Source of the DNA: a virus
IMG/VR virus record: IMGVR_UViG_3300012202_000008
Coordinates: 1 to 31,301 of that record
Strand: one strand, 5' to 3'
Length of the DNA: 31,301 nucleotides
Shown here piece after piece: positions 13,687 to 29,643 of this stretch. The notes beneath the pieces were generated by a model. That model had not been told where the DNA came from, did not search any database, and saw nothing but the letters and a program-made list of their open reading frames with translations. Each line of letters begins with the position of its first letter. Within the stretch, counting starts at the first letter, position 1. The position numbers were made by a program, and so were the translations under genes.

Positions 13687-13832
13687 TGCCTTCATCCTCC
13701 TGGTGGCGGCCTTCAGATAAATCTTGTTATCAGACATCTTCGAGCACACTACGCACCGATCATTTGATGCGTAGCGCTCGGCAACGTGACCGTGACGGCA
13801 CGGATTCCCGGTGAAATATCGCTTTCCCCTCA
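13687..13832 (-). other. In-frame zinc-knuckle module upstream of the exported protein
   Basis: Between the stop of the glycosyltransferase fusion gene and the start of the exported protein, the exported protein's frame stays open and encodes RYFTGNPCRHGHVAERYASN followed by DRCVVCSK. This CxHGH...CxxC pattern is familiar from N-termini of phage HNH-type endonucleases. No ATG or TTG start precedes it; a GTG at 13878 inside the upstream gene would give a 292-residue membrane protein with a cytoplasmic zinc module. It may be a real N-terminal extension, a separate tiny protein, or a remnant of a lost homing endonuclease. Confidence 0.45.
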
Positions 13833-16244
13833 GACCGCGCTCAGGTCGTTTGCGACCCTCCTCACCAACTCGTCCCACTCGCCGACCTTCTGCTGCCTGT
13901 AAATCTTGACGCTAGGATACCACGGGCTGCGCTCGTTCCAAGGTGAGCCGGGACGCTCGGCCATCCAGTGCCACGACCCTGGCTCGGCCGAGTTCAGCAG
14001 CCATACGGGCTTGCCCATCGCGCCGGCGAGATGCACTACCGCCGTGTCAACAGAGATGACCAAGTCGAGGTTGGCGACCAACGCCGCAGTATCGTCCCAG
14101 GACGGTTTTTCTGGGAGAACATCCTCTGCCAATCTGTTTTGCGTGCGTTCTGGGCCAACTTGAAGCGATATGAAATCAAACCCATCTACATCAAGGAGCG
14201 GTTTCAGATCGTCGAAGTGCATCGACTTGCGCTTGCCATACCTCGCGATCCATAGTCCCTCACGGATGCCGGACGACCAGCACAATCCAACGCTCCGACA
14301 TCGTTCGCTCAACGGAAGACTTCTGCAGTACTTGGCAACGAGGTCAGGATCGGCGTGCAGGTACGGCCCGAACGACGGCACGGTGTCGACCTCCGTCCCG
14401 AACACGTGCGGGAGTTCGCCGATCGGGATGTGATAGTCGAACGCCTCGATGCCGATCGCGCCCGGATAGTCTATGGCCTGCGGGACCACCTTGACTCCTG
14501 GGAAGCTGCGCTGCATCAGGGACAGCATGTTCTCGTAGGCCTCGTAGCGAACGTCGTAGCCATCGTCGACCATCAGCTGGAGGTACCGCGCGCAACAAAG
14601 GTTGTCTCCGAACCCGGCCTCTGCGTGGACGTGGATGCGCGCCGGAGATTTCAGGTTCACGCAATCGTCGTTGCTCAGCGCTGGCTCACCGTTCCACATC
14701 GGCGAATCGAAGCGATTGACCGGCACGTACAGCGGCAGTTGTGTGCGCTCCACGGACCTCCAGGTGTGTTCCTTCCAGCCCTCTCTGTAGCGGCCCAGAG
14801 CGTGCAGCGACAGACTCTTGTTCCAGTGGCACGTCGCCGGCTCGCTGACGCCGGCCTCCAGGGCCTCGTCATAGAGCGCTATCGCGTCCTCGTGCCGCCC
14901 CTCGCGGTAGGCGGTGAAGGCCAGGGTCAGCGTCGCGTCACCATGGGCGGTGGGCGGTTCTTTGGTGAAGCGGACCTCGTGTGCCAGCCTCTCGGCTTCG
15001 GCGTAGACCTCTTTCGTCGGCTCGTCGTCGAACAGCGCCGAGATCATGTCCAACTTAGGTTCAACTGCGTCCGGGTCGACCTCCATAGCGCGCCGGAAGG
15101 CGGCCTTCGCCTCCTCCAGTTTCTCCGACCAGAGGTAGAGGCCGCCGAGCATGCGCCACGCATGAACGTTGTCAGGCTCGATGCGCGTCGCCACGATGGC
15201 CTCGTTGATCGCCCGGTCCCAGTGCCGCATCGGCCGCAATGTCTGCCCCACCATCTCCAGGATATACTCGACGGCGTCCGGGACACACTTGATCGCTTCC
15301 TGGTACCAGTCGAACGCCGTCCCCAGCTTCTTCTGGCTGGCCGCGATCTTCGCGAAGAAAAAACATGCCTCCCCGCGGGCGACGCGCTGCGCCGTGGTCT
15401 CTGGATTCTTCGTGATCGTGTAGATCAAGCGGAAGAGGTTGTTGGCGTCCAGGACGCGGCCGGCGTGGTAGTACCCGCTGGCCTGCGCCAGCAGATCCTT
15501 GAGGTTGACCGTATCGCTCGGGACGGGGGTCACCTCGACGGACGACACCATCCCAACCCAGCCAGCCTGGTAATGCTGGAACATCTGCTCGGCACCTACC
15601 TCCGCGGCATACCTCGCGACCAACCCACCCTTGCCGCCGACCTCGATGTAGGGGCAGTTCTCTAGGACGATCGGGGCGTCGTCGACCGCAACGAGCGTGT
15701 CCGGCCGCAGGATCGGCAACGCCGCCAGCAGTTCGTCGAGGTGGTGCTTCTGGGCCATAAGCGTCGCAGCCCAGTTCAGGTTCGATGCGTCGAGGTAGAG
15801 CAGGTCGATCGGAACGGAAGAAACATCGGCCGCCGCCTTCAGGTATTGAACGCTGTCGCCGCAGTGGATGTACGAGGAACCACATACCGCTCCCCTGCAC
15901 AAGTCGACGGAGGAGGCATCCGTGTCCACGGATTCGAACGATGACCCGGGATGTGTCCTCACGTACTTGTCGAACAGCAGCGTCGAGCACCCGTTGCCGC
16001 CCCAGCCATCATCGTTGAACCTCTCCGCGCAACCGGTCTCGACGATCAGCACTGGCCGGTCGAACCGGTCGAGGTGCTCGAACATCATGCGGAAGGTGTC
16101 GGCGCGGGTGTGATACGACGGGACGGGCCACGACTTGAGCCGCGGGATCGCGTGCTCCTCGTACCACTTCCAGAAATCTACGGAGTACCCTGGGCCACGA
16201 ACGGGTTGGGTCGTTCGTTTGTCATCGTGGGCGGTTCCATGCAT
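13830..16244 (-). CDS. Methyltransferase-TPR-glycosyltransferase fusion
   Basis: This 804-residue protein has three parts. About residues 50-230 look like a class I SAM-dependent methyltransferase: LIVETGCAERFNDDGWGGNG (motif I region), then VDTDASS, DLLYLDAS and VAVDDAPIV. About residues 250-480 form TPR-like helical pairs (HAWRMLGGLYLWSEKLEEAK, AFTAYREGRHEDAIALYDEA). About residues 500-804 match TPR-linked glycosyltransferases related to heptosyltransferase family 9: HVHAEAGFGDNL, SVGLCWSSG and LDLVISVDTAVVHLAGAMGK. Together they suggest synthesis or capping of a methylated glycan on a virion protein or host surface. Substrates cannot be read from sequence. The start lies inside the preceding gene (67-base overlap), and the ribosome site is moderate. 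Confidence 0.75.
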   Translation of the reverse strand: MHGTAHDDKRTTQPVRGPGYSVDFWKWYEEHAIPRLKSWPVPSYHTRADTFRMMFEHLDRFDRPVLIVETGCAERFNDDGWGGNGCSTLLFDKYVRTHPGSSFESVDTDASSVDLCRGAVCGSSYIHCGDSVQYLKAAADVSSVPIDLLYLDASNLNWAATLMAQKHHLDELLAALPILRPDTLVAVDDAPIVLENCPYIEVGGKGGLVARYAAEVGAEQMFQHYQAGWVGMVSSVEVTPVPSDTVNLKDLLAQASGYYHAGRVLDANNLFRLIYTITKNPETTAQRVARGEACFFFAKIAASQKKLGTAFDWYQEAIKCVPDAVEYILEMVGQTLRPMRHWDRAINEAIVATRIEPDNVHAWRMLGGLYLWSEKLEEAKAAFRRAMEVDPDAVEPKLDMISALFDDEPTKEVYAEAERLAHEVRFTKEPPTAHGDATLTLAFTAYREGRHEDAIALYDEALEAGVSEPATCHWNKSLSLHALGRYREGWKEHTWRSVERTQLPLYVPVNRFDSPMWNGEPALSNDDCVNLKSPARIHVHAEAGFGDNLCCARYLQLMVDDGYDVRYEAYENMLSLMQRSFPGVKVVPQAIDYPGAIGIEAFDYHIPIGELPHVFGTEVDTVPSFGPYLHADPDLVAKYCRSLPLSERCRSVGLCWSSGIREGLWIARYGKRKSMHFDDLKPLLDVDGFDFISLQVGPERTQNRLAEDVLPEKPSWDDTAALVANLDLVISVDTAVVHLAGAMGKPVWLLNSAEPGSWHWMAERPGSPWNERSPWYPSVKIYRQQKVGEWDELVRRVANDLSAV

Positions 16245-16618
16245 GGCGGTTCCGTTTCCTTTGGGTGGAGGCGGGTCCGCTCTTCGCCGATGTAGCCGTC
16301 GTCATAGAAGCGCACCCGAGACGTGCCGTAGCATCGATAACACATGCCGGCCTCTGGAGTGCTACCGCGCCCGCCACAGTCTGGGCAAGGCCGGTATTCG
16401 AAATTCTGCCATGGCGCGCCGTCTTTCTGCGTGACGGTGACGTGGATCTCGCCGAGGGAATGGGCGTTGCAGCCGAACTCCGGCGGGGTCTCGATGTTCA
16501 GCGCCTGGCACTGACCCTTCCCAGGAGCTGAGGTGGGTGTGAATATCTCAGACCCGTCGCTGTAGACGGTTTTCTTGCCCATGATCCAGTGGACGCAGTT
16601 GAAGCAATGGCCAGTCAC
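16178..16618 (-). CDS. Cys-rich zinc protein with DnaJ-like CxxCGGxG module
   Basis: This 146-residue protein has two Cys clusters. The first 60 residues hold CFNCVHW, CQAL and CNAH. Residues near 78-100 read CPDCGGRGSTPEAGMCYRCY, like one repeat pair of the DnaJ zinc domain (CxxCGGxG...CxxCxG). The GTG start overlaps the FkbM gene stop as GTGA, with GGAG upstream. The last 20 residues overlap the start of the glycosyltransferase fusion. It probably binds one or two zinc ions and acts as a small adaptor or chaperone-like protein; the target is unknown. Confidence 0.65.
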   Translation of the reverse strand: MTGHCFNCVHWIMGKKTVYSDGSEIFTPTSAPGKGQCQALNIETPPEFGCNAHSLGEIHVTVTQKDGAPWQNFEYRPCPDCGGRGSTPEAGMCYRCYGTSRVRFYDDGYIGEERTRLHPKETEPPCMEPPTMTNERPNPFVAQGTP

Positions 16619-17370
16619 GCTGCTTTCTCCATAGCCTTCAATGGTTCCATGATCACGTTCATACCATCAAAGACTCGGCAAGCGTAGCCATCACCGACAG
16701 CGGCAGCATAATCGTCTATGGCAAAGTTGTTTTCAGCCACGATGACAGGATAGCACCTTTCGATCGTCTCCCTGGCACCTTTAAGAACATCCAATTCCAT
16801 CCCCTGAACATCGATCTTGATAAAGTCGAGACGTGGCAACTTGAAATCGTCAATTGCTGCGGCGGTAATCTCGACCTCGCCAACGGACGGAGGTTGATCG
16901 TACCTGCCCCATCCGTTCAAAGATAACCCACCGAAGTTAGCCGGCTTTTGATGGTCAACTATCGGCACGACCATGATGCCGGATTGGGCGGCTGCCGCAG
17001 CCCACATCGCCCTCGCATTGAAGCAGTTGTTCATGGTGATGTTGCCGCACAGAGCATAATAAATGCGCTCTTGGGCCTCTATTGCGTAGACTTCTCCCCA
17101 CCCGTGCATTCTGATTGCCCACGCGATGGTATGGGTTCCTATGTTGGCACCAACGTCGAGAACAACCACGCCGTCGCCAAATTTCTCGCGTCTCGAACGA
17201 ATAACGTCGAAACAATCATCTATTTCCTGTCGAAAATATTCACCAGTCTCCATAAGATCGACGCCAACACCACGCCATCCATCACCGTTTGGGCGACGGA
17301 AATAATCGTAACGGTTGGCAAGCATCGGTCCAAAGTGGGTAGCGGTGATGACGAATGGATTGCGCTTCAC
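16615..17370 (-). CDS. FkbM-family SAM-dependent methyltransferase
   Basis: This 251-residue protein has motif I VLDVGANIGTHT near residues 70-81, an acidic residue in YAIEAQ near residue 98, and the FkbM-typical IKIDVQGMELDVLKGA near residue 185. The family O-methylates sugars or related hydroxyl groups. Its GTG start overlaps the previous stop as GTGA and is served by AGAGG, so it is coupled to the small gene upstream. It lies in the same operon as a glycosyltransferase fusion and a DUF115-like protein, so glycan methylation is the most likely role. The DNA looks A/T-richer than its neighbours, suggesting transfer. Confidence 0.85.
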   Translation of the reverse strand: MKRNPFVITATHFGPMLANRYDYFRRPNGDGWRGVGVDLMETGEYFRQEIDDCFDVIRSRREKFGDGVVVLDVGANIGTHTIAWAIRMHGWGEVYAIEAQERIYYALCGNITMNNCFNARAMWAAAAAQSGIMVVPIVDHQKPANFGGLSLNGWGRYDQPPSVGEVEITAAAIDDFKLPRLDFIKIDVQGMELDVLKGARETIERCYPVIVAENNFAIDDYAAAVGDGYACRVFDGMNVIMEPLKAMEKAA

Positions 17371-20151: not shown

Positions 20152-20517
20152 TCAGTTCGACTTATCGTCGCCCTTGCCGTTCGCCGGCAGCGGCTTTCCC
20201 GCCAGTAGGTAGGCGGACTCCCTGTCGAGCGCCTGCTCGTTGAGCCTGCGGCCCTCGACCACGTTGTAGCGGCCGAACCCGCAGTTCACGACGTGGCGCT
20301 CCTGCGGCTCCAATGAGTGCTGGACCTGCTGGGCGACCGCCTCCATCGGCCATATGGCCAGGTAGCCGCGGTCGATCAGCGAAGACCGGTTCGACGTGCG
20401 GATCGACCGCACCTCGTCGCCTGTGAGCACCGTACCGCGCGGCAGCGTCTTGTCGCCCATCCGGAACGGACGCTCGACCTTGCCGCCGCCGATGTGGGTG
20501 TGGTGGATGGGGATCAT
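20152..20517 (-). CDS. Small protein following the major capsid gene
   Basis: This 121-residue protein (MIPIHHTHIGGGKVERPFRM...) has a charged, mixed alpha/beta sequence with DKTLPRGTVLTGDEVRSIRT and a Lys-rich end. It follows the capsid gene by about 40 bases, a slot often used for head completion or stabilisation proteins. A weak AGGTAGAG precedes the ATG. No family is recognised. Confidence 0.6.
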   Translation of the reverse strand: MIPIHHTHIGGGKVERPFRMGDKTLPRGTVLTGDEVRSIRTSNRSSLIDRGYLAIWPMEAVAQQVQHSLEPQERHVVNCGFGRYNVVEGRRLNEQALDRESAYLLAGKPLPANGKGDDKSN

Positions 20518-20558: not shown

Positions 20559-21575
20559 TCAGACCGTCGTGATGGCTGACCAGAAGAACCCGAGGTCGGC
20601 CCCGACCACCTGCATGTCGAACGCCATCTCGGCCTCGTTGCGGATCGTCCCGAGCCCCAGCCAGTTCATCGGGATCTGCGACACGCGGATGCCAAGCGAG
20701 TTCAGGCCGGTGAACGCCTGCCAGCCGAAGGTGTAGCCGCTCGACGGGATCATCAGCCCGGGCTGGCCCGGCACATAGAGCAGCAGCGCGTTCTTGCCGG
20801 CGACGAACGCCATCGACGCGCTCAGGTTCTCGGCCGCGGTGTTGTAGACGGCCTTCGACACCACGATGCGGTCGATCGCGAACGCCTGTGCGAGGAGCTG
20901 CGGCGTGATGGTCCCGGCGAACGCGGGGTTCGTGTACTTTATGCGGTCGATCACCAGCGGGTGCTTGCGCAGCGCCTGGTAGACGTTCCACGAGATCAGG
21001 AACACGTTCGGCAGGAAGCCGGTGTTCGTCAGGATCGTCGTCTGCCCGAACGCGATGTCGGTGAACGGGTCCGAGTTCGCGTCGTCGTCCCAGAACACGG
21101 GAGAGAACGTCCCGGGGGTGCCGAGCGCCGCGGTGGTGCCGGTGGCGTCACCGCCTCCCAGCGTGTTCCAGACGCCCGTGATCATGTACTTCGACATGAA
21201 GAATCTATCACGGCGTATCATCAATTTTTGCATCAACTGCCTAGTGCTCACTACGTCGATATCGATCGCCGGATCCTGGTTGGCGCGGACCTGCGGACCG
21301 ACGTCCTGATGCAATGCCCAAACTTTGGCGCTGTAGGTCTGCGTCGTCAGGTTGACGCCGGTGCCCGCCGACTCCGACGCGTCGGCGCGGACCTGCGCCT
21401 CGTCGCGGAAAAAATCAGCCTTCGACCAGACGAAATACACATCCGTCTGGTGCTGGACCGGCACCATCGGAAACACCTTGTCCGCAACGTAGTTGTCGTC
21501 GCTCTGGAAGTAGGCGACCGCGATTTGTGTCAGCGCCGCTGCCACATGAACATCGCCGAAGGTCGGCTGGGGTAT
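20559..21575 (-). CDS. Major capsid protein, probable ATA start
   Basis: The family-consistent N-terminus PQPTFGDVHVAAALTQIAVA is encoded from position 21572. The codon before it is ATA at 21575, with TAGGAGG and a five-base spacer upstream. There is no ATG, GTG or TTG between the in-frame stop at 21587 and GTG at 21545, and using that GTG would delete the conserved T-F-x-D-V-H-V segment. Downstream, VADKVFPMVPVQHQTDVYFV, KVWALHQDVGPQVRAN and MIRRDRFFMSKYMITGVWNT match an HK97-fold phage capsid family. The 338-residue product forms the icosahedral shell. The start codon call is inferred from family knowledge plus the ribosome site. Confidence 0.9.
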   Translation of the reverse strand: MPQPTFGDVHVAAALTQIAVAYFQSDDNYVADKVFPMVPVQHQTDVYFVWSKADFFRDEAQVRADASESAGTGVNLTTQTYSAKVWALHQDVGPQVRANQDPAIDIDVVSTRQLMQKLMIRRDRFFMSKYMITGVWNTLGGGDATGTTAALGTPGTFSPVFWDDDANSDPFTDIAFGQTTILTNTGFLPNVFLISWNVYQALRKHPLVIDRIKYTNPAFAGTITPQLLAQAFAIDRIVVSKAVYNTAAENLSASMAFVAGKNALLLYVPGQPGLMIPSSGYTFGWQAFTGLNSLGIRVSQIPMNWLGLGTIRNEAEMAFDMQVVGADLGFFWSAITTV

Positions 21576-21581
21576 GGCAAC

Positions 21582-21599
21582 CTCCTATTTAGCTAGGAG
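21582..21599 (-). promoter_or_regulatory. Hairpin covering the capsid ribosome-binding site
   Basis: On the minus strand CTCCTA-GCTAAA-TAGGAG forms a perfect 6-bp stem whose 3' arm contains the AGGAG of the capsid Shine-Dalgarno sequence. If it folds, the capsid start would be masked. Together with the ATA start it could tune capsid expression or be opened by a translating ribosome or protein. Alternatively, the inverted repeat is chance created at the junction with the inserted HNH gene. Confidence 0.4.
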
Positions 21600-21692: not shown

Positions 21693-22301
21693 ATGCCAAG
21701 CCGGGTCAGAGTTGATCGCGAGCCTATTTTCAAAATGCTCGATGAGACTGAGGGGAACATCCCTGAGACAGCGAGACGTCTCGGACTGCATGTGAACACC
21801 ATTCGTCACATCAGTCGGGTGCGGAAAGGACTCTGCGCACGGTGTGAACGCCCATCTCAACCGGGACTGACCAAATGCAAGAATTGCGCGCAATGGGAAC
21901 GCAAACGCATTGCCGACAGTCGAGCGCGCTCCCGCAAACTTGGCAAGTGCTCGATGTGCCCAAAGAAGTTGCGCAAGGGATCGACGCTGTACTGTGAGGA
22001 ACACTACCAGCAAACGTTCAAACGCCAGCGAGTATTTCGCATCCTCGACAGACATGGACCAGAGGCGCTTGAGTTCCTCAACGCGACAGAGGATCGATGC
22101 CAAGCTTGCGGCGTAACCCGCGCTGAAAAGCGCATCGATCTTCACCATATCGACGGGGATCATGGGAACGATCATCCCACGAATTTCGCCGTCATATGTG
22201 TCGACTGCCACTGGATTGCTCATCGTCTGCTTCTATCGCGCGACCGTAAGGCGCTGATCTCCTGGTTCGAGAAAACATATCCTGCGCACGTTCTCCGTTA
22301 G
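21693..22301 (+). CDS. HNH homing endonuclease with HTH and zinc fingers
   Basis: This 202-residue protein starts with ATG at 21693 behind AGGAG. Order of parts: a helix-turn-helix near residues 18-40 (GNIPETARRLGLHVNTIRHI), a zinc finger CARCERPSQPGLTKCKNC, a second Cys/His finger CSMCPKKLRKGSTLYCEEH, and a C-terminal HNH nuclease with CQACG near residue 136, DLHHIDGDHGN, then VICVDCHWIAH. It is encoded on the strand opposite to all head genes and sits between decoration and capsid genes, so it is a free-standing mobile endonuclease rather than part of the structural operon. Its stop overlaps the decoration gene stop tail to tail. Confidence 0.9.
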   Translation: MPSRVRVDREPIFKMLDETEGNIPETARRLGLHVNTIRHISRVRKGLCARCERPSQPGLTKCKNCAQWERKRIADSRARSRKLGKCSMCPKKLRKGSTLYCEEHYQQTFKRQRVFRILDRHGPEALEFLNATEDRCQACGVTRAEKRIDLHHIDGDHGNDHPTNFAVICVDCHWIAHRLLLSRDRKALISWFEKTYPAHVLR

Positions 22302-22888
22302 AAGCTCGACGCGATCTGAACGCCGCCCACGAAGGCGGTGAACACTGCACCGACGCTGAGCGCGTTCTCGATTGCGATGCCGACCGCTCTGCCATTACCG
22401 CTAGCCCACGGAACAACTGCGCCGGATGATGTGGATGATGCTTGCAGCAATGATCCGCCAGCGATTGCAGTGGATGCTGACACCACCTTCGTGAAGCCAA
22501 AGATACCGACGTCGACCGCATCACCAGCTCGTGGCTTGTTCTGACAGACGCCATACACTGATTGGGCCGACGACAAATTGATCATCGTCGACGTGAACAG
22601 GGTGATGGTGCGACCGGTGCTGAGCGTGACTAGCAAAAATTGACCACTGCCGCTCGGTCCCGAGAGGGTCGTTCCTGTCAGCGTCGAGTTGCGGAAGTCC
22701 TGGCCAGTCGACAGAATAGTCTGCGACCCGTCGTGGATGAGCGGCGACTCCGTCGCCTGCTGCTGCTGCACCGGACGGCCCTTGGCGCGCTGGATGAACC
22801 CGCGGCGCTTGATGCCGAAACCGCCGTCCGCCCGGCGTTCCAGCTCCATGAAGGCGCGGCCCTGGCCGATCTCTTTCTCGAAGTACAT
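22298..22888 (-). CDS. Capsid decoration protein (DUF2190-like)
   Basis: This 196-residue protein has a basic N-terminus (MYFEKEIGQGRAFMELERRA...) with GGAGGAG upstream of the ATG, a Gln-rich stretch, and a C-terminal domain from about residue 110. That domain contains QNKPRAGDAVDVGIFGFTKV, AIAGGSLLQASS and GRAVGIAIENALSVGAVFTA. The GDAVDVGIFG / AVGIAxENA pattern resembles DUF2190-type decoration and lambda gpD-like proteins that stabilise expanded capsids. Position between scaffold and major capsid genes agrees. The longer N-terminal extension is unusual. The stop codon shares bases with the convergent HNH stop. Confidence 0.75.
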   Translation of the reverse strand: MYFEKEIGQGRAFMELERRADGGFGIKRRGFIQRAKGRPVQQQQATESPLIHDGSQTILSTGQDFRNSTLTGTTLSGPSGSGQFLLVTLSTGRTITLFTSTMINLSSAQSVYGVCQNKPRAGDAVDVGIFGFTKVVSASTAIAGGSLLQASSTSSGAVVPWASGNGRAVGIAIENALSVGAVFTAFVGGVQIASSF

Positions 22889-22926: not shown

Positions 22927-24342
22927 TCAGGCGGCGTGGGACCGGCCGTGGATCTTGGCCATGCGCGCGTCGGCCTCGGCCTGGCGCAGCTTGACGTTGG
23001 CCGGATCGTTGTAGGCCTTGTCGAACGCCTGGGCCTCGGTGAGGGACGGGTCCTTCTCGCGCAGCGCCTTGGCCATCGTGGTGATGGAGTCCATCGCGGT
23101 GGCACCTTCGCCCTCCGGCGAGCCTGTATGTCCGAGTTCATCGAACGCGCGGCTGGACTTCTCGAACGCCTTCTTGGACTTCGCCAACTCGGCGACCATG
23201 CCCTCGTACTTCTTGATCGCGTCCTTGTCGCCGCGGCGCATCTTCATCAGCACCTCGCCGGCGTCGGTCTGGGTGAACCCGGAGTCCTTCGCGTCCTGCT
23301 TGGCGATCTTGAGGTCGCGCTCGTCGTCCATGGCGTCGAGGCGCTTCTTCAGATCTGCGTTCTCGGCCATCAAACCCTTGACGATCGGATCGTCGGACAG
23401 ACGCTTTTTCGTCTTGTCCATCTCGCCGTCGCGCGCATCGGGCGACATGTCACGGAACTTCTTCTTGTCCGCGTCCGACCCCAGGTTGTCGTGGTAGGTC
23501 TTCTGGGCGTCGCTCATCTTCGAGACGACGAGGTCGTCGAGGAGTTTGTTGATCTTCTCCTCGCTGGAAGCGGTGGCGGCGGCGACTGCCTTGGCGACCG
23601 CCTCATCCATCATTTTCTGAACCTGCGGGCTGAGAGCGGGAGTGGTCATGTCGTCGTCCCTCTTGCTGGTGTCGTCGTCGTCCGCGTCGTCCTCAAGGCC
23701 GAGGCTGGCGATGTGATCCTTGAACTGGTTGTAGCTGGTGGTGATCGACGGGACCTTGTCGGTGATAGCCTCGTCGCAAAGGATGGACTGTATCGAGCAA
23801 TCGAGAGCGCACATCGCGTCGCGGACGGCGCACATGAGTTCCGACGCGTCCTCTGCCGTCTCCATGGCGTCTGCCATGTCGCTGAAGTCCTTCGCCGCCT
23901 TGCACACCCTGGCGAAGGCGTTGCGCTCGGCGATCAACTCCACGTCGGCTTTGGTGAGTTTCTTGCTCCAGGAGTCCGGCAGCATATCTGACGCGCCGAG
24001 CGCAGAAGCGCGCGCCTTGATGTGCGCCTTAGCCTTCGCCGGATTCTTCGCGCGGCCGATCGCCTGGATGGCGTTGCCGAGGTCTTCCTTGGTCTTGATC
24101 GGATAGGACCCATCAGGCAACGCGGCCCCACTGTCCGCGGCCGACTGACGCTCCTTGCCGCTGAACTCGCGCTTCAGATACTCCGCCACTTCCTCGGAAA
24201 GGTCCGCGATCTCGTCAGGCCCCATGGACTCGTACAACGAAGGCATGTTGCGCTTCGTGAGGACCACCTTGACGCCGCGGCCAGCGCCGACATCAACCGA
24301 TGATACGTCATCGATTCGTAAATTTCTCAGAACGCGTGCCAT
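22927..24342 (-). CDS. Scaffold-like capsid assembly protein with DUF6582-like region
   Basis: This 471-residue protein begins MARVLRNLRIDDVSSVDVGA then GRGVKVVLTKR, a common opening of capsid-assembly proteins. Residues 74-125 (ALPDGSYPIKTKEDLGNAIQ...) match the DUF6582 pattern. An acidic stretch (residues 217-231) leads to a long coiled coil (about 330-410) and a helical C-terminus, typical of scaffolding proteins. ATG at 23649 (residue 232, MTTPALSPQVQKMM) is preceded by AGAGG nine bases away, so a nested shorter scaffold may also be made. It is the first head gene after the GIY-YIG insertion. Its own upstream site is weak. Confidence 0.75.
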   Translation of the reverse strand: MARVLRNLRIDDVSSVDVGAGRGVKVVLTKRNMPSLYESMGPDEIADLSEEVAEYLKREFSGKERQSAADSGAALPDGSYPIKTKEDLGNAIQAIGRAKNPAKAKAHIKARASALGASDMLPDSWSKKLTKADVELIAERNAFARVCKAAKDFSDMADAMETAEDASELMCAVRDAMCALDCSIQSILCDEAITDKVPSITTSYNQFKDHIASLGLEDDADDDDTSKRDDDMTTPALSPQVQKMMDEAVAKAVAAATASSEEKINKLLDDLVVSKMSDAQKTYHDNLGSDADKKKFRDMSPDARDGEMDKTKKRLSDDPIVKGLMAENADLKKRLDAMDDERDLKIAKQDAKDSGFTQTDAGEVLMKMRRGDKDAIKKYEGMVAELAKSKKAFEKSSRAFDELGHTGSPEGEGATAMDSITTMAKALREKDPSLTEAQAFDKAYNDPANVKLRQAEADARMAKIHGRSHAA

Positions 24343-24416: not shown

Positions 24417-25223
24417 TTGAAAGCATCAGGACCGCCATATGGACTTGTATACAAAATCACGTGTCTGGTTTCAGGGAAAAGCTACATTGGAGTGACGATA
24501 CGGAAGTTGAAAAGACGCTGGCAAGCGCACCTTCTGAGTGTCGGAAATGGGAAGGGTCATGCCATACACGCTGCGATCGCTAAGTACGGTAAAAACCAGT
24601 TCGTCATCGAAGAGGTCGCCTGTGCCATCGACAGGAACTCGCTCATGATCGCAGAACGGGAAATTATCTCCCAAGAAAATACGATCTCTCCTAACGGTTA
24701 CAATTTGACTGCCGGCGGTGAAGGAATGTTTGCACCAAGCGCTGAAACGAGACTCAAAAAGCGCAACGCTCTACTTGGGAAAAAGCAATCTTTAGAACTA
24801 ATCGAGAAACGTATTGCTTCTCGACGAGGACAGCCAAGAGACCGCGCTGCTGTGGAACAAAGTAGACTTAAGCAATTAGGAACAAAACGCAAAAGCTGGG
24901 GCAGACATACCCAGGAATCCATTCTTAAGATGAAAGAAAAATGCAAGGGTAGGAGACCCAGTCCCGCAACAACTCAAGCCGCCATTGCTGCTCTTACAGG
25001 CAGGCCACAAAGCATCGATTCTAAAATCAAGCGAAGCGTGTCCCTGAAAGCTTTCTACGCCAGCAATGAGGGAAAGGCGCTTGCTACACTAAGAGCATCA
25101 CAAAACAAGGGTCGGGTCGTCTCTTCCGAGACTAGCCTGAAAATAAGCCGAGCACTGCGAGGGAAAGTTAAACGCATTCGTGGAAAGTGCTCAAGCAGTC
25201 CAGCCCAACTTTCTCTATGGTAA
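24417..25223 (+). CDS. GIY-YIG homing endonuclease with NUMOD-like DNA-binding repeats
   Basis: This 268-residue protein starts at a TTG with GGGGAG upstream. The nuclease core runs over about residues 8-95: GLVYKITCLVSGKSYIGVT (the GIY and YIG elements), the Arg-bearing KLKRRWQAH and the Glu of IAEREIIS. Residues after about 100 are Lys/Arg-rich with repeated NUMOD3-like segments (KKRNALLGKKQSLELIEK, IKRSVSLKAFYASNEGKAL, SLKISRALRGKVKRIRGK). Such proteins cut specific sites and promote their own spread. It lies opposite to the head genes and looks A/T-richer than its neighbours, so it is a later insertion. It overlaps the next gene by 7 bases. Confidence 0.9.
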   Translation: MKASGPPYGLVYKITCLVSGKSYIGVTIRKLKRRWQAHLLSVGNGKGHAIHAAIAKYGKNQFVIEEVACAIDRNSLMIAEREIISQENTISPNGYNLTAGGEGMFAPSAETRLKKRNALLGKKQSLELIEKRIASRRGQPRDRAAVEQSRLKQLGTKRKSWGRHTQESILKMKEKCKGRRPSPATTQAAIAALTGRPQSIDSKIKRSVSLKAFYASNEGKALATLRASQNKGRVVSSETSLKISRALRGKVKRIRGKCSSSPAQLSLW

Positions 25224-26655: not shown

Positions 26656-29643
26656 TCAAGCGTCGACTGTTTCCCGCCTCGCCTTCCCGCCGATGGAGAA
26701 CTCCGGCAACTCGCCAGCCTTGATGCGCTTCCATACTCCTGGATCATCCACGCGAAAACCGATCCACCATCCTGTGAGTCCAAGATCGACGCCTAGCGCC
26801 TCCTGCTTCTGCTTCGTGAACATCATGGACTCGACCAGCCGGCCAACGCCCATTCGCTCGTGCATGTCGCCCTGCTGGCGGCAGTAGAGGGCGAAGTCGT
26901 AGGCGGCCTTCTCCAGCTCGTCCTCCGGGATGATGTCGTCCTGCTTGTCCACAACATCCTCGCCACCGATCGAGCAAATCGACGCCCAGCCGAACACGAG
27001 CTGCTGGTCCTCGTCGGTCTTCCGGACGTCGAACTCGATCTCCATGTCGGGTGCCTTGTTCACGGGTTCGCCCTTGCTGCCTTGATTTTCATCGGTGTGG
27101 ACGCGCGGATCGTAATCCTCGATATCGAGGTACTTGACCGTGACCGTCTTGACGCCGCTGAGCTTCGCGGCCGTCAACCTGTGGTGTCCGTCGACGATGC
27201 AGTAGCGCCCCGGGCCAATGCGCACCACAACAGGGCGCTTCTCCGTGGCGCCCTCGATCATCGACTGTATTTTCCCCGGGTCGACCCGGTCCTGGACGGC
27301 TGACAGCATGGATAACGGGATCTCCCGCTCCTCCAGCGAATCCTGGTCCGTCAGCGCCGCCAGCACCCGCTCCTTCTGATCGTTGCGCAGATCGGAGAAG
27401 AAATACTGGTCGTACGGGAACGGCGACCTCGCGTTCTGGTCGTCCAACGGGATGAGCTGGAGCGATACGTTGACCTGGTCCGTTGGCTTGGCGATGGACG
27501 ACGTGCTACCCCCCAGTTTGGCCAGTTCCGCATCGAGGAACTCGTGGACGCCGTCCGACTCCAGCCATGTCTTGCGCATCCAACCGTCCTTGGTCTTGCT
27601 CCATCCGTTCTTGACGGCGGTCCATGCCTGCCGGATAGCAGATTTTTCGGACTGCCCCGCCTTGATGCGGTCGTTCGCCACCTTCCTCCAGACGGTCTGC
27701 GCCTCCTGCGGCAGGACGTTCCTGACGCCGTCCGGGAGTTCGGCGTTGCTGCCCAACACCTTGCCGACTTTCGCCTCTCCATGGTCTTCCTTGGCGCTCC
27801 TGAGGGCATTCTGGAGTTCGTCGGTGCTGAATTCCATTTCCACGAAGTCGCCGGGGTCCTCGCCAGCCTTCATGAACTTTTTGGCGTCGACCGTCCCGTC
27901 CGGACGCATCGCCGCGAACAGGCGCTCGTTGCGATGATGGGAAACAACCAGCATCTTCTTCTTGCCCGCCTTCTTGATGTGGCTCAGCATCGCCTGCGCG
28001 GCGCGCGCCTTGAACGTGTTGAACGACTCGCCGCCGTCCACCATCTCGTCCGGGTTCTCGACGTGCTCCAAAATACCGTCATGGGCCTCGTCCGTCGTCT
28101 GCCCGGTGAACTTGCCGAGGTTCCACGGCCGCATTCCGTAGTCATGGATGGGTTTGATCCCAACCGCCTTGCCGACGAGCTTGGACGTCTGGATGGCGCG
28201 GCCAAGATCAGAGCTGACGATGTAGCCGATGTCCTGCTTCGCCAGTTTCTCGCCGGCCTTCTCGGCGTCCTCGATGCCCTCCGCCGTCAGCGGGACGTTG
28301 TTCCAGGATCGCACCCGGTCCTTGCTCATATCGGTCTGGTTGTTGAACCGGGTCGGGCCGTGGCGCATGAACAGCACTGAAACAGTGCGCTTGCTGAGTT
28401 CGTCCCAATCCACCTTGGCTAGAACTGCATTTCCAAGCGCGGTCACAAAGTCAATGGTCGCCGCACTGGCAAGCGCATCGGCCTTGATCTTCTCCAGCGC
28501 CTTGCCGAAATCCATGGCTGGGACCGCCATGACGCGCGCACCCTTGATCTCCCCGATGGTGGTCAGGAAGTCCTTCGCCTTGCGCTTGTTGGGAGGCTGG
28601 TTGCCTAGCGCGGTGGTCGCGTGGACATCGCCGACGGTCATGTTCTTGCCCACCCTATGGATGCCTGACGCAGACAAGTGCTGCTCGATCCTCGCCATCG
28701 CGTCCCCCGTGGCTTGGTGCAGATCGCTGAGATGTTGGTGAAGCTCGACAGCCGCCTCTGCCGCCGTCTTCTGGGCAGCCACCGCAGCACTCTCAAGCTC
28801 AGGATCCTGCTCTCCGTGGTTGTCTTGATGCTCCTGGGCCACTTCCTCAGCGTAGCTAGCCTCGGTCATGGCTTGATCGAGCGTCTGGTGGGCATCATCC
28901 ACCTTGCTGGCGTGGCCAGCTATGTCGTTACCTTCGACAGCACCGTGGATATTGGCTGCTGTGCCAGATGATATCCCGCCACCCTCCGACGTCCACATCC
29001 CCTTCGCGTCCCGCGGCTCGTCCGGACTGTACGCCTTGTGCGCGGATTGCAAGCTCTGGAGATCGTCCCGCGCCTGCTGGAGCATCCGGTGGACGCCCCA
29101 GTAGAGATCCTCGCTCTTGTCCTGGCTGTGCTCACTAAGTTGACGCTGGAGGTCGTCCACCTTTTGCTGGGCATCCTTCATCTGCTTTTCGTCGCGGGCC
29201 TGCTGGCGCTCCTCCCGGCGAAGCTCAGCATCGAGATAGGTGCTCACTGATTGGCCGCGCCGACCAGCAATCCTGCCACCGGTCCTGCCGCTTTGCCTCG
29301 TCGTACCCTGGCCAGCGCCAGACCCGGTCGTCCACTTGCCCTGGTTGTCGCGGGCCTCGTCCGGAGGGCCGTCCTTCAGCACCTCGGCGAAGGACTTAGC
29401 CTTTCCGATAGCCGCGCGCGCCCTGGCGTTGGGATCGAGGGGTTCATAGTCATCGCAGTAGCCGTGGGAAGCTATCGGAGGCGCGACGTGGGTGCACGCC
29501 GGCGGGTTGCCATCAACGAACATCGAGCAGCCGGAGCACCGCTTGTCGCCGTTGGGATGGTCCTGGTAGCCGACCTTGGCGTGGGACTTAAGCTTGCGGA
29601 CTACCTGAAGTTCTATCGCCTTCGTGAAGTTGATCGCCATCAT
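26656..29643 (-). CDS. Prohead protease polyprotein (HiPIP-like, phosphatase, ChaB, ParB, XkdF)
   Basis: This 995-residue single frame has, in order: a Cys module at residues 36-63 (CSGCSMFVDGNPPACTHV...GYC) like high-potential iron-sulfur proteins; a linker with DEARDNQGKWT (95-105); a Glu/Gln-rich coiled coil (140-320) interrupted by DEPRDAKGMWT (208-218); a histidine phosphatase with FMRHGPTRFN (425-434), SSDLGRAIQTS (477-487), DGGESF (536-541) and VVSHH (566-570); a ChaB-like helix region (635-690); a ParB-like domain (723-845, with IVDGHHRLTAAKL at 816-828); and an XkdF/S78-type prohead protease (865-990, likely catalytic His in DMHER and Ser in EFSIGG). Proteolysis at the RDxxGxWT linkers could release cargo. 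It follows where a portal gene would be. The start overlaps the preceding gene. Confidence 0.85.
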   Translation of the reverse strand: MMAINFTKAIELQVVRKLKSHAKVGYQDHPNGDKRCSGCSMFVDGNPPACTHVAPPIASHGYCDDYEPLDPNARARAAIGKAKSFAEVLKDGPPDEARDNQGKWTTGSGAGQGTTRQSGRTGGRIAGRRGQSVSTYLDAELRREERQQARDEKQMKDAQQKVDDLQRQLSEHSQDKSEDLYWGVHRMLQQARDDLQSLQSAHKAYSPDEPRDAKGMWTSEGGGISSGTAANIHGAVEGNDIAGHASKVDDAHQTLDQAMTEASYAEEVAQEHQDNHGEQDPELESAAVAAQKTAAEAAVELHQHLSDLHQATGDAMARIEQHLSASGIHRVGKNMTVGDVHATTALGNQPPNKRKAKDFLTTIGEIKGARVMAVPAMDFGKALEKIKADALASAATIDFVTALGNAVLAKVDWDELSKRTVSVLFMRHGPTRFNNQTDMSKDRVRSWNNVPLTAEGIEDAEKAGEKLAKQDIGYIVSSDLGRAIQTSKLVGKAVGIKPIHDYGMRPWNLGKFTGQTTDEAHDGILEHVENPDEMVDGGESFNTFKARAAQAMLSHIKKAGKKKMLVVSHHRNERLFAAMRPDGTVDAKKFMKAGEDPGDFVEMEFSTDELQNALRSAKEDHGEAKVGKVLGSNAELPDGVRNVLPQEAQTVWRKVANDRIKAGQSEKSAIRQAWTAVKNGWSKTKDGWMRKTWLESDGVHEFLDAELAKLGGSTSSIAKPTDQVNVSLQLIPLDDQNARSPFPYDQYFFSDLRNDQKERVLAALTDQDSLEEREIPLSMLSAVQDRVDPGKIQSMIEGATEKRPVVVRIGPGRYCIVDGHHRLTAAKLSGVKTVTVKYLDIEDYDPRVHTDENQGSKGEPVNKAPDMEIEFDVRKTDEDQQLVFGWASICSIGGEDVVDKQDDIIPEDELEKAAYDFALYCRQQGDMHERMGVGRLVESMMFTKQKQEALGVDLGLTGWWIGFRVDDPGVWKRIKAGELPEFSIGGKARRETVDA

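Follow-up and report, generated by a model that had tools for sequence, protein, structure and literature searches.

Probable AUA initiation of a viral major capsid protein gene and the association of weak start codons with strong Shine-Dalgarno sequences in its family

The major capsid protein gene of a soil phage, IMG/VR record IMGVR_UViG_3300012202_000008 (positions 1 to 31,301; this whole stretch of 31,301 nucleotides is called the window), most likely starts at an AUA codon at which ordinary initiator fMet-tRNA would genuinely initiate, the weakness of the codon being compensated by a strong Shine-Dalgarno (SD) sequence. We assign this reading a probability of roughly 0.88 on comparative sequence grounds. 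Below, we document the anatomy of the site, the conservation of codons 2 to 11, the recurrence of AUU and AUA starts in the capsid family, and the association of SD strength with the start codon.

The features concerned are listed in Table 1. On the minus strand, the start region reads 5′ to 3′ ...CTCCTAGCTAAA TAG GAG GTT GCC ATA CCC CAG CCG ACC TTC GGC GAT GTT CAT GTG GCA..., with the in-frame TAG at 21587-21585 and the spacer TTGCC at 21580-21576. As claimed in a preliminary description of this DNA, ATA lies five bases after TAGGAGG and is the sole start-like codon in the interval from the in-frame stop to the conserved N-terminal segment: GAG, GTT and GCC are all the codons that separate TAG from ATA, none of them being ATG, GTG or TTG, and the first canonical start codon 3′ of ATA is GTG, as codon 11. 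No interruption occurs in the 338 codons of the frame, which ends at 20559. Its product is an HK97-fold major capsid protein, known here from the gene sequence and a structural model. It gave a full-length match to the PHROG 1005 major head protein profile (E = 2.7 × 10−71, residues 6-334), and the AlphaFold model, built from 53 homologues (pLDDT 84.8), retrieved 3bjq (E = 1.9 × 10−18) and HK97 1ohg (E = 6 × 10−10) in a Foldseek search, the former also being matched by the capsid sequence (E = 6 × 10−22).

Table 1. The capsid gene, its start site and neighbouring genes, in window coordinates
Feature	Position	Strand	Remarks
Major capsid protein gene (HK97 fold, PHROG 1005)	20559..21575	-	Proposed start ATA; 338 codons + stop
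Putative ATA initiation codon	21573..21575	-	Sole start-like codon from in-frame stop to conserved N-terminus; aligns with homologue ATG/GTG/TTG/ATT starts
Shine-Dalgarno TAGGAGG, strong	21581..21587	-	5 nt from ATA; its TAG doubles as in-frame stop
GTG alternative start	21543..21545	-	Codon 11 with ATA as codon 1; rejected
HNH endonuclease gene	21693..22301	+	phrog_8048/24252 HNH; ATG at 21693, AGGAG upstream; divergent insertion just upstream of capsid gene
Upstream head gene, scaffold/decoration-like	22298..22888	-	phrog_673; ATG start
Downstream gene (control)	20152..20517	-	ATG start; 76 orthologues, all with canonical start
Upstream gene (control)	22927..24342	-	ATG start; 80 orthologues, all with canonical start

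A second contig, IMGVR_UViG_3300012923_000140 (loci L054/L209), carries ATA too and is 99.99% identical to the window over 10,096 bp, with a single mismatch. This contig continues past the window and so does not merely duplicate the window contig; it may nevertheless come from the same site. The agreement of two assemblies makes a random base error in one of them unlikely. L002, whose protein is 99% identical, and L004 are the nearest relatives, and their start column holds GTG, which places ATA two substitutions away and not one. It is very improbable, in our estimate, that ATA represents a dead or damaged start, whether a point mutation of ATG or GTG or a sequencing error, in one population. 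The GTG of the nearest relatives, the finding of ATA in two assemblies only, possibly from one site, and the fact that virus populations can harbour defects would be in keeping with such damage, but the two assemblies concur with one mismatch in 10 kb, the reading frame is undamaged, ATA is two base changes from the nearest GTG relative, and ATT stands at the same column in seven relatives, most of which share the SD architecture. The non-canonical start is therefore not private to the window contig.

The codons downstream of ATA bear on where translation begins. Compared with L002, L003, L004 and L005, codons 2 to 11 of the window showed 7, 7, 8 and 9 synonymous differences and 1, 0, 0 and 0 nonsynonymous ones, respectively. 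Differences so nearly confined to synonymous sites indicate purifying selection at the protein level, and thus this segment must be translated. These data scarcely leave room for a start at the GTG further downstream that would turn the codons before it into an untranslated leader, a reading that could appeal to GTG being a common start and to codon 11 being the first canonical codon. Apart from the purely synonymous variation against L003, L004 and L005, codon 11 is GTA or GTC, never GTG, in L002 to L005, the strong SD sequence lies far upstream of the GTG, and the homologues L120 and L179 have no canonical start codon at all within their first 30 codons. The GTG had been set aside already in the preliminary description, and these comparisons bear that out; likewise, the alignment of capsid homologues proposed there placed ATA in the column of ATG, GTG, TTG and ATT starts. 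Of the candidate starts, this AUA is the one with the best support.

In all eight ATT/ATA loci, an in-frame stop is found 3 to 16 codons upstream, and no canonical start lies between this stop and the ATT or ATA. Might translation instead enter from upstream, by TAG readthrough or frameshifting, with ATA being an internal isoleucine codon? The in-frame TAG lies just three codons upstream, and N-terminal extensions occur in the distant homologues L035 and L038 as well as in L006, L008 and L009; yet the in-frame ORF that lies upstream in the window runs antisense to the HNH gene, the stop varies by locus (TAG, TAA or TGA), and the alternation of ATG, GTG, TTG, ATT and ATA is not what an internal isoleucine codon would show. 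Moreover, 103 of the 131 internal isoleucine codons in the eight ATT/ATA capsid genes are ATC while the start is never ATC (P = 4 × 10−6), and hence the codon is more than an isoleucine codon inside a longer protein. We regard upstream entry as most improbable. The close relatives L006, L008 and L009 (82-85% identical) have no SD sequence, and before their ATG-CCG-CAG the frame stays open for tens of codons and contains an ATG; the capsid protein of these loci may have a longer N-terminus, or their leader may have been rearranged.

Weak starts recur across the capsid family. We compiled 122 distinct loci from IMG/VR and three bacterial metagenome-assembled genomes (MAGs), with two isolate records included, and aligned the start column by anchoring on the conserved VH. 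The column held ATG in 84 loci, GTG in 9, TTG in 7, ATT in 7 (L003, L120, L165, L179, L198, L205 and L222) and ATA in 1; in ten further loci the codon was one for lysine, and almost all of these had an ATG in frame some few codons before it, while a small number of loci were shifted. Since L205 and L222 were found only through a pattern demanding GGAG and ATH, the statistics are also given without them. One locus with ACG at the start column and an odd AGGTAGG leader (L252) was left out of the non-canonical count because upstream in-frame GTG/TTG codons are present. On a maximum-likelihood tree of 119 proteins, a quick one in which L205 and L222 sit on long branches, the ATT/ATA distribution needs at least 7 changes, 7 being forced by well-supported branches (6 without L205/L222). 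ATT/ATA thus recurs on the tree but persists in no single lineage, the nearest relatives of the window having GTG. Non-canonical starts occurred in 8 of 121 capsid genes versus 0 of 156 orthologues of the flanking genes (p = 0.001), and in 6 of 119 when the pattern-found loci were removed (p = 0.006). Among 12 isolate phages examined, all were annotated with ATG or GTG and none with ATT or ATA. General use of ATA/ATT across the window ORFs was considered and rejected, as genes at candidate positions such as 19638 and 29694 start with ordinary GTG/ATG.

The strength of the SD sequence was strongly associated with the start codon. GGAGG was present within 18 nt upstream in 21/24 non-ATG loci versus 4/84 ATG loci (p = 2 × 10−15), or in 19/22 non-ATG loci without L205 and L222 (p = 3 × 10−14), and every non-ATG homologue with GGAGG had an SD-to-start spacing of 5 to 7 nt; two of the eight ATT/ATA loci, L120 and L198, lack GGAGG. 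These counts cover related phages, and comparisons independent of kinship gave only p = 0.016 to 0.03: among 11 phylogenetically independent pairs, SD and start changed together in 6.7 on average and in the opposite sense in 0 (sign test p = 0.016; p = 0.03 without the two pattern-found loci). The contrast is illustrated by L163 (ATG, AGGAG) and L165 (ATT, AGGAGG), whose proteins are 97% identical. The combination of an ATA, ATC or ATT codon with a correctly spaced GGAGG also goes beyond chance: it occurred at 0 of 1,800 other in-frame codon positions in the vicinity of homologues that start with ATG, GTG or TTG, against 6 of 108 at the start column.

From these data, we propose that initiator fMet-tRNA would initiate the capsid gene at AUA, where the third-base mismatch should weaken P-site pairing and leave the complex open to rejection by IF3, and that the near-maximal SD helix (TAGGAGG with a 5-nt spacer) would hold the 30S subunit long enough to compensate. 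The virion peptide expected from this start is PQPTFGDVHVAAALTQ, with Met removed, or MPQPT at the N-terminus. Across the family, the start codon repeatedly shifts among AUG, GUG, UUG, AUU and AUA and SD strength shifts in the opposite direction, and selection may hold total capsid output, of whatever size, in a useful range that is perhaps sensitive to IF3. AUA and AUU starts with an extended SD in Staphylococcus aureus give about 10-30% of AUG output (PMC13009471), and it is paradoxical that an abundant capsid protein should come from a start that yields about a tenth of AUG output elsewhere.

A further layer might be added to this explanation, namely, that AUA serves as a deliberate IF3-sensitive regulator that keeps capsid synthesis low until late infection or until IF3 becomes limiting. 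The start class is the one against which IF3 discriminates, as the factor reduces in vitro products from an AUU/CAU mismatch (PMC10158994), and the recurrence of AUU/AUA in the capsid family points the same way. Candidate hosts were sought through capsid relatives, which we found in MAG contigs labelled Asaia, Acetobacteraceae and Elstera, labels that may include binning errors. We examined infC, which encodes IF3 and is the classic gene under IF3 control, in these three MAG genomes and 30 genomes from the family of one of them, an Acetobacteraceae-type family (n = 33; loci L320-L352). The aligned infC start, tallied by reading the alignment listing, was ATA in 27, CTG in 4 and ATC in 2, with ATG, GTG or TTG in 0, and AGGAG-type SD sequences lie upstream; in many of the 33, a canonical codon follows within a few residues, and in seven none occurs before the conserved core. 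These aligned starts suggest that hosts of this kind, as identified through the relatives in MAGs, probably use AUA initiation for IF3 as a matter of course, a point in favour both of AUA initiation in the capsid gene and of the IF3-sensitive layer.

Set against regulation, drift at constant output explains the compensating SD strength equally well, and the start region has no conserved RNA structure: a local stem can fold over the SD in the window's own upstream region (z = −1.8) but is not conserved, and pairing was no higher than in shuffled sequences, so that a conserved SD-sequestering hairpin was rejected. Neither the window nor the further pieces of sequence that were examined contained a tRNA gene, as the idea of a tRNA with an altered anticodon would call for. 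We thus consider a regulatory role unlikely, though it is a contender to be taken seriously, and plain compensated initiation, with the weak codons reached repeatedly by drift or by tuning of capsid dose, is the most likely reading. The fuller proposal that the capsid family repeatedly evolved AUU/AUA with a strong SD to gate capsid synthesis by the host IF3:ribosome balance, as the host itself controls infC, is doubtful.

The surroundings of the gene showed several features of their own. The upstream head gene is separated from the capsid gene by the inserted HNH endonuclease gene; the DNA match between the window and L002 restarts exactly at 21590, at the capsid SD and past the HNH insert, and L004 has only about 47 nt at this place. 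A GIY-YIG homing endonuclease gene (NUMOD3; 24417-25223, plus strand) lies upstream of the gene at 22927-24342 and in the opposite orientation, giving the head module two homing-type genes. A 995-aa ORF (26656-29643, minus strand) fuses a histidine phosphatase domain, ChaB and an XkdF-like protease domain (Pfam), an unusual combination, and an FkbM methyltransferase and a TPR/heptosyltransferase-like protein are encoded at 13830-17370 (minus strand) inside the phage structural region.

AUU and AUA starts are generally seen as uncommon devices that restrain regulatory genes; that they arose repeatedly in a viral capsid gene, together with compensating SD sequences, provides a natural experiment on the trade-off between start codon and SD. 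Gene callers limited to ATG, GTG and TTG cut such starts short or overlook them, a blind spot that here affects a viral hallmark gene. With infC of the candidate host family apparently starting at AUA-type codons, the link to IF3 can be tested directly, and, if IF3 gating were true, a virus would be tapping the initiation-fidelity feedback of its host to control the timing or dose of the protein it makes most of. AUA/AUU starts as such are a known kind of site; in the open-licence papers searched, we found no report of one in a phage capsid gene, nor of such starts recurring in a viral major capsid gene along with a measurable trade-off against the SD.

The preliminary description had called AUA initiation very rare in bacteria. 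Rare it is, yet it is an established bacterial start, used by S. aureus infC, ccpN and citZ (PMC13009471). Like the capsid gene, S. aureus ccpN and citZ (AUA) and cvfC1 (AUU) combine a non-canonical start with an extended SD motif, and in ccpN and cvfC1 the weak start is conserved; these, however, are regulatory or metabolic Firmicute genes (PMC13009471). The major head proteins (PHROG 1005) of the isolates Pseudomonas phage KPP23 and Roseobacter phage RDJL Phi 2 are homologous to the capsid protein of the window and are encoded in a comparable setting of head genes; their capsid genes, unlike that of the window, start with ATG. A close parallel in design is offered by infC, which likewise has an AUA/AUU start and a strong nearby SD, and whose use of a weak start is conserved. 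In Escherichia coli, infC is autoregulated, a known case of feedback on a cellular regulator. Whereas infC thus encodes a cellular regulator under feedback, the capsid protein has a structural role that calls for hundreds of copies.
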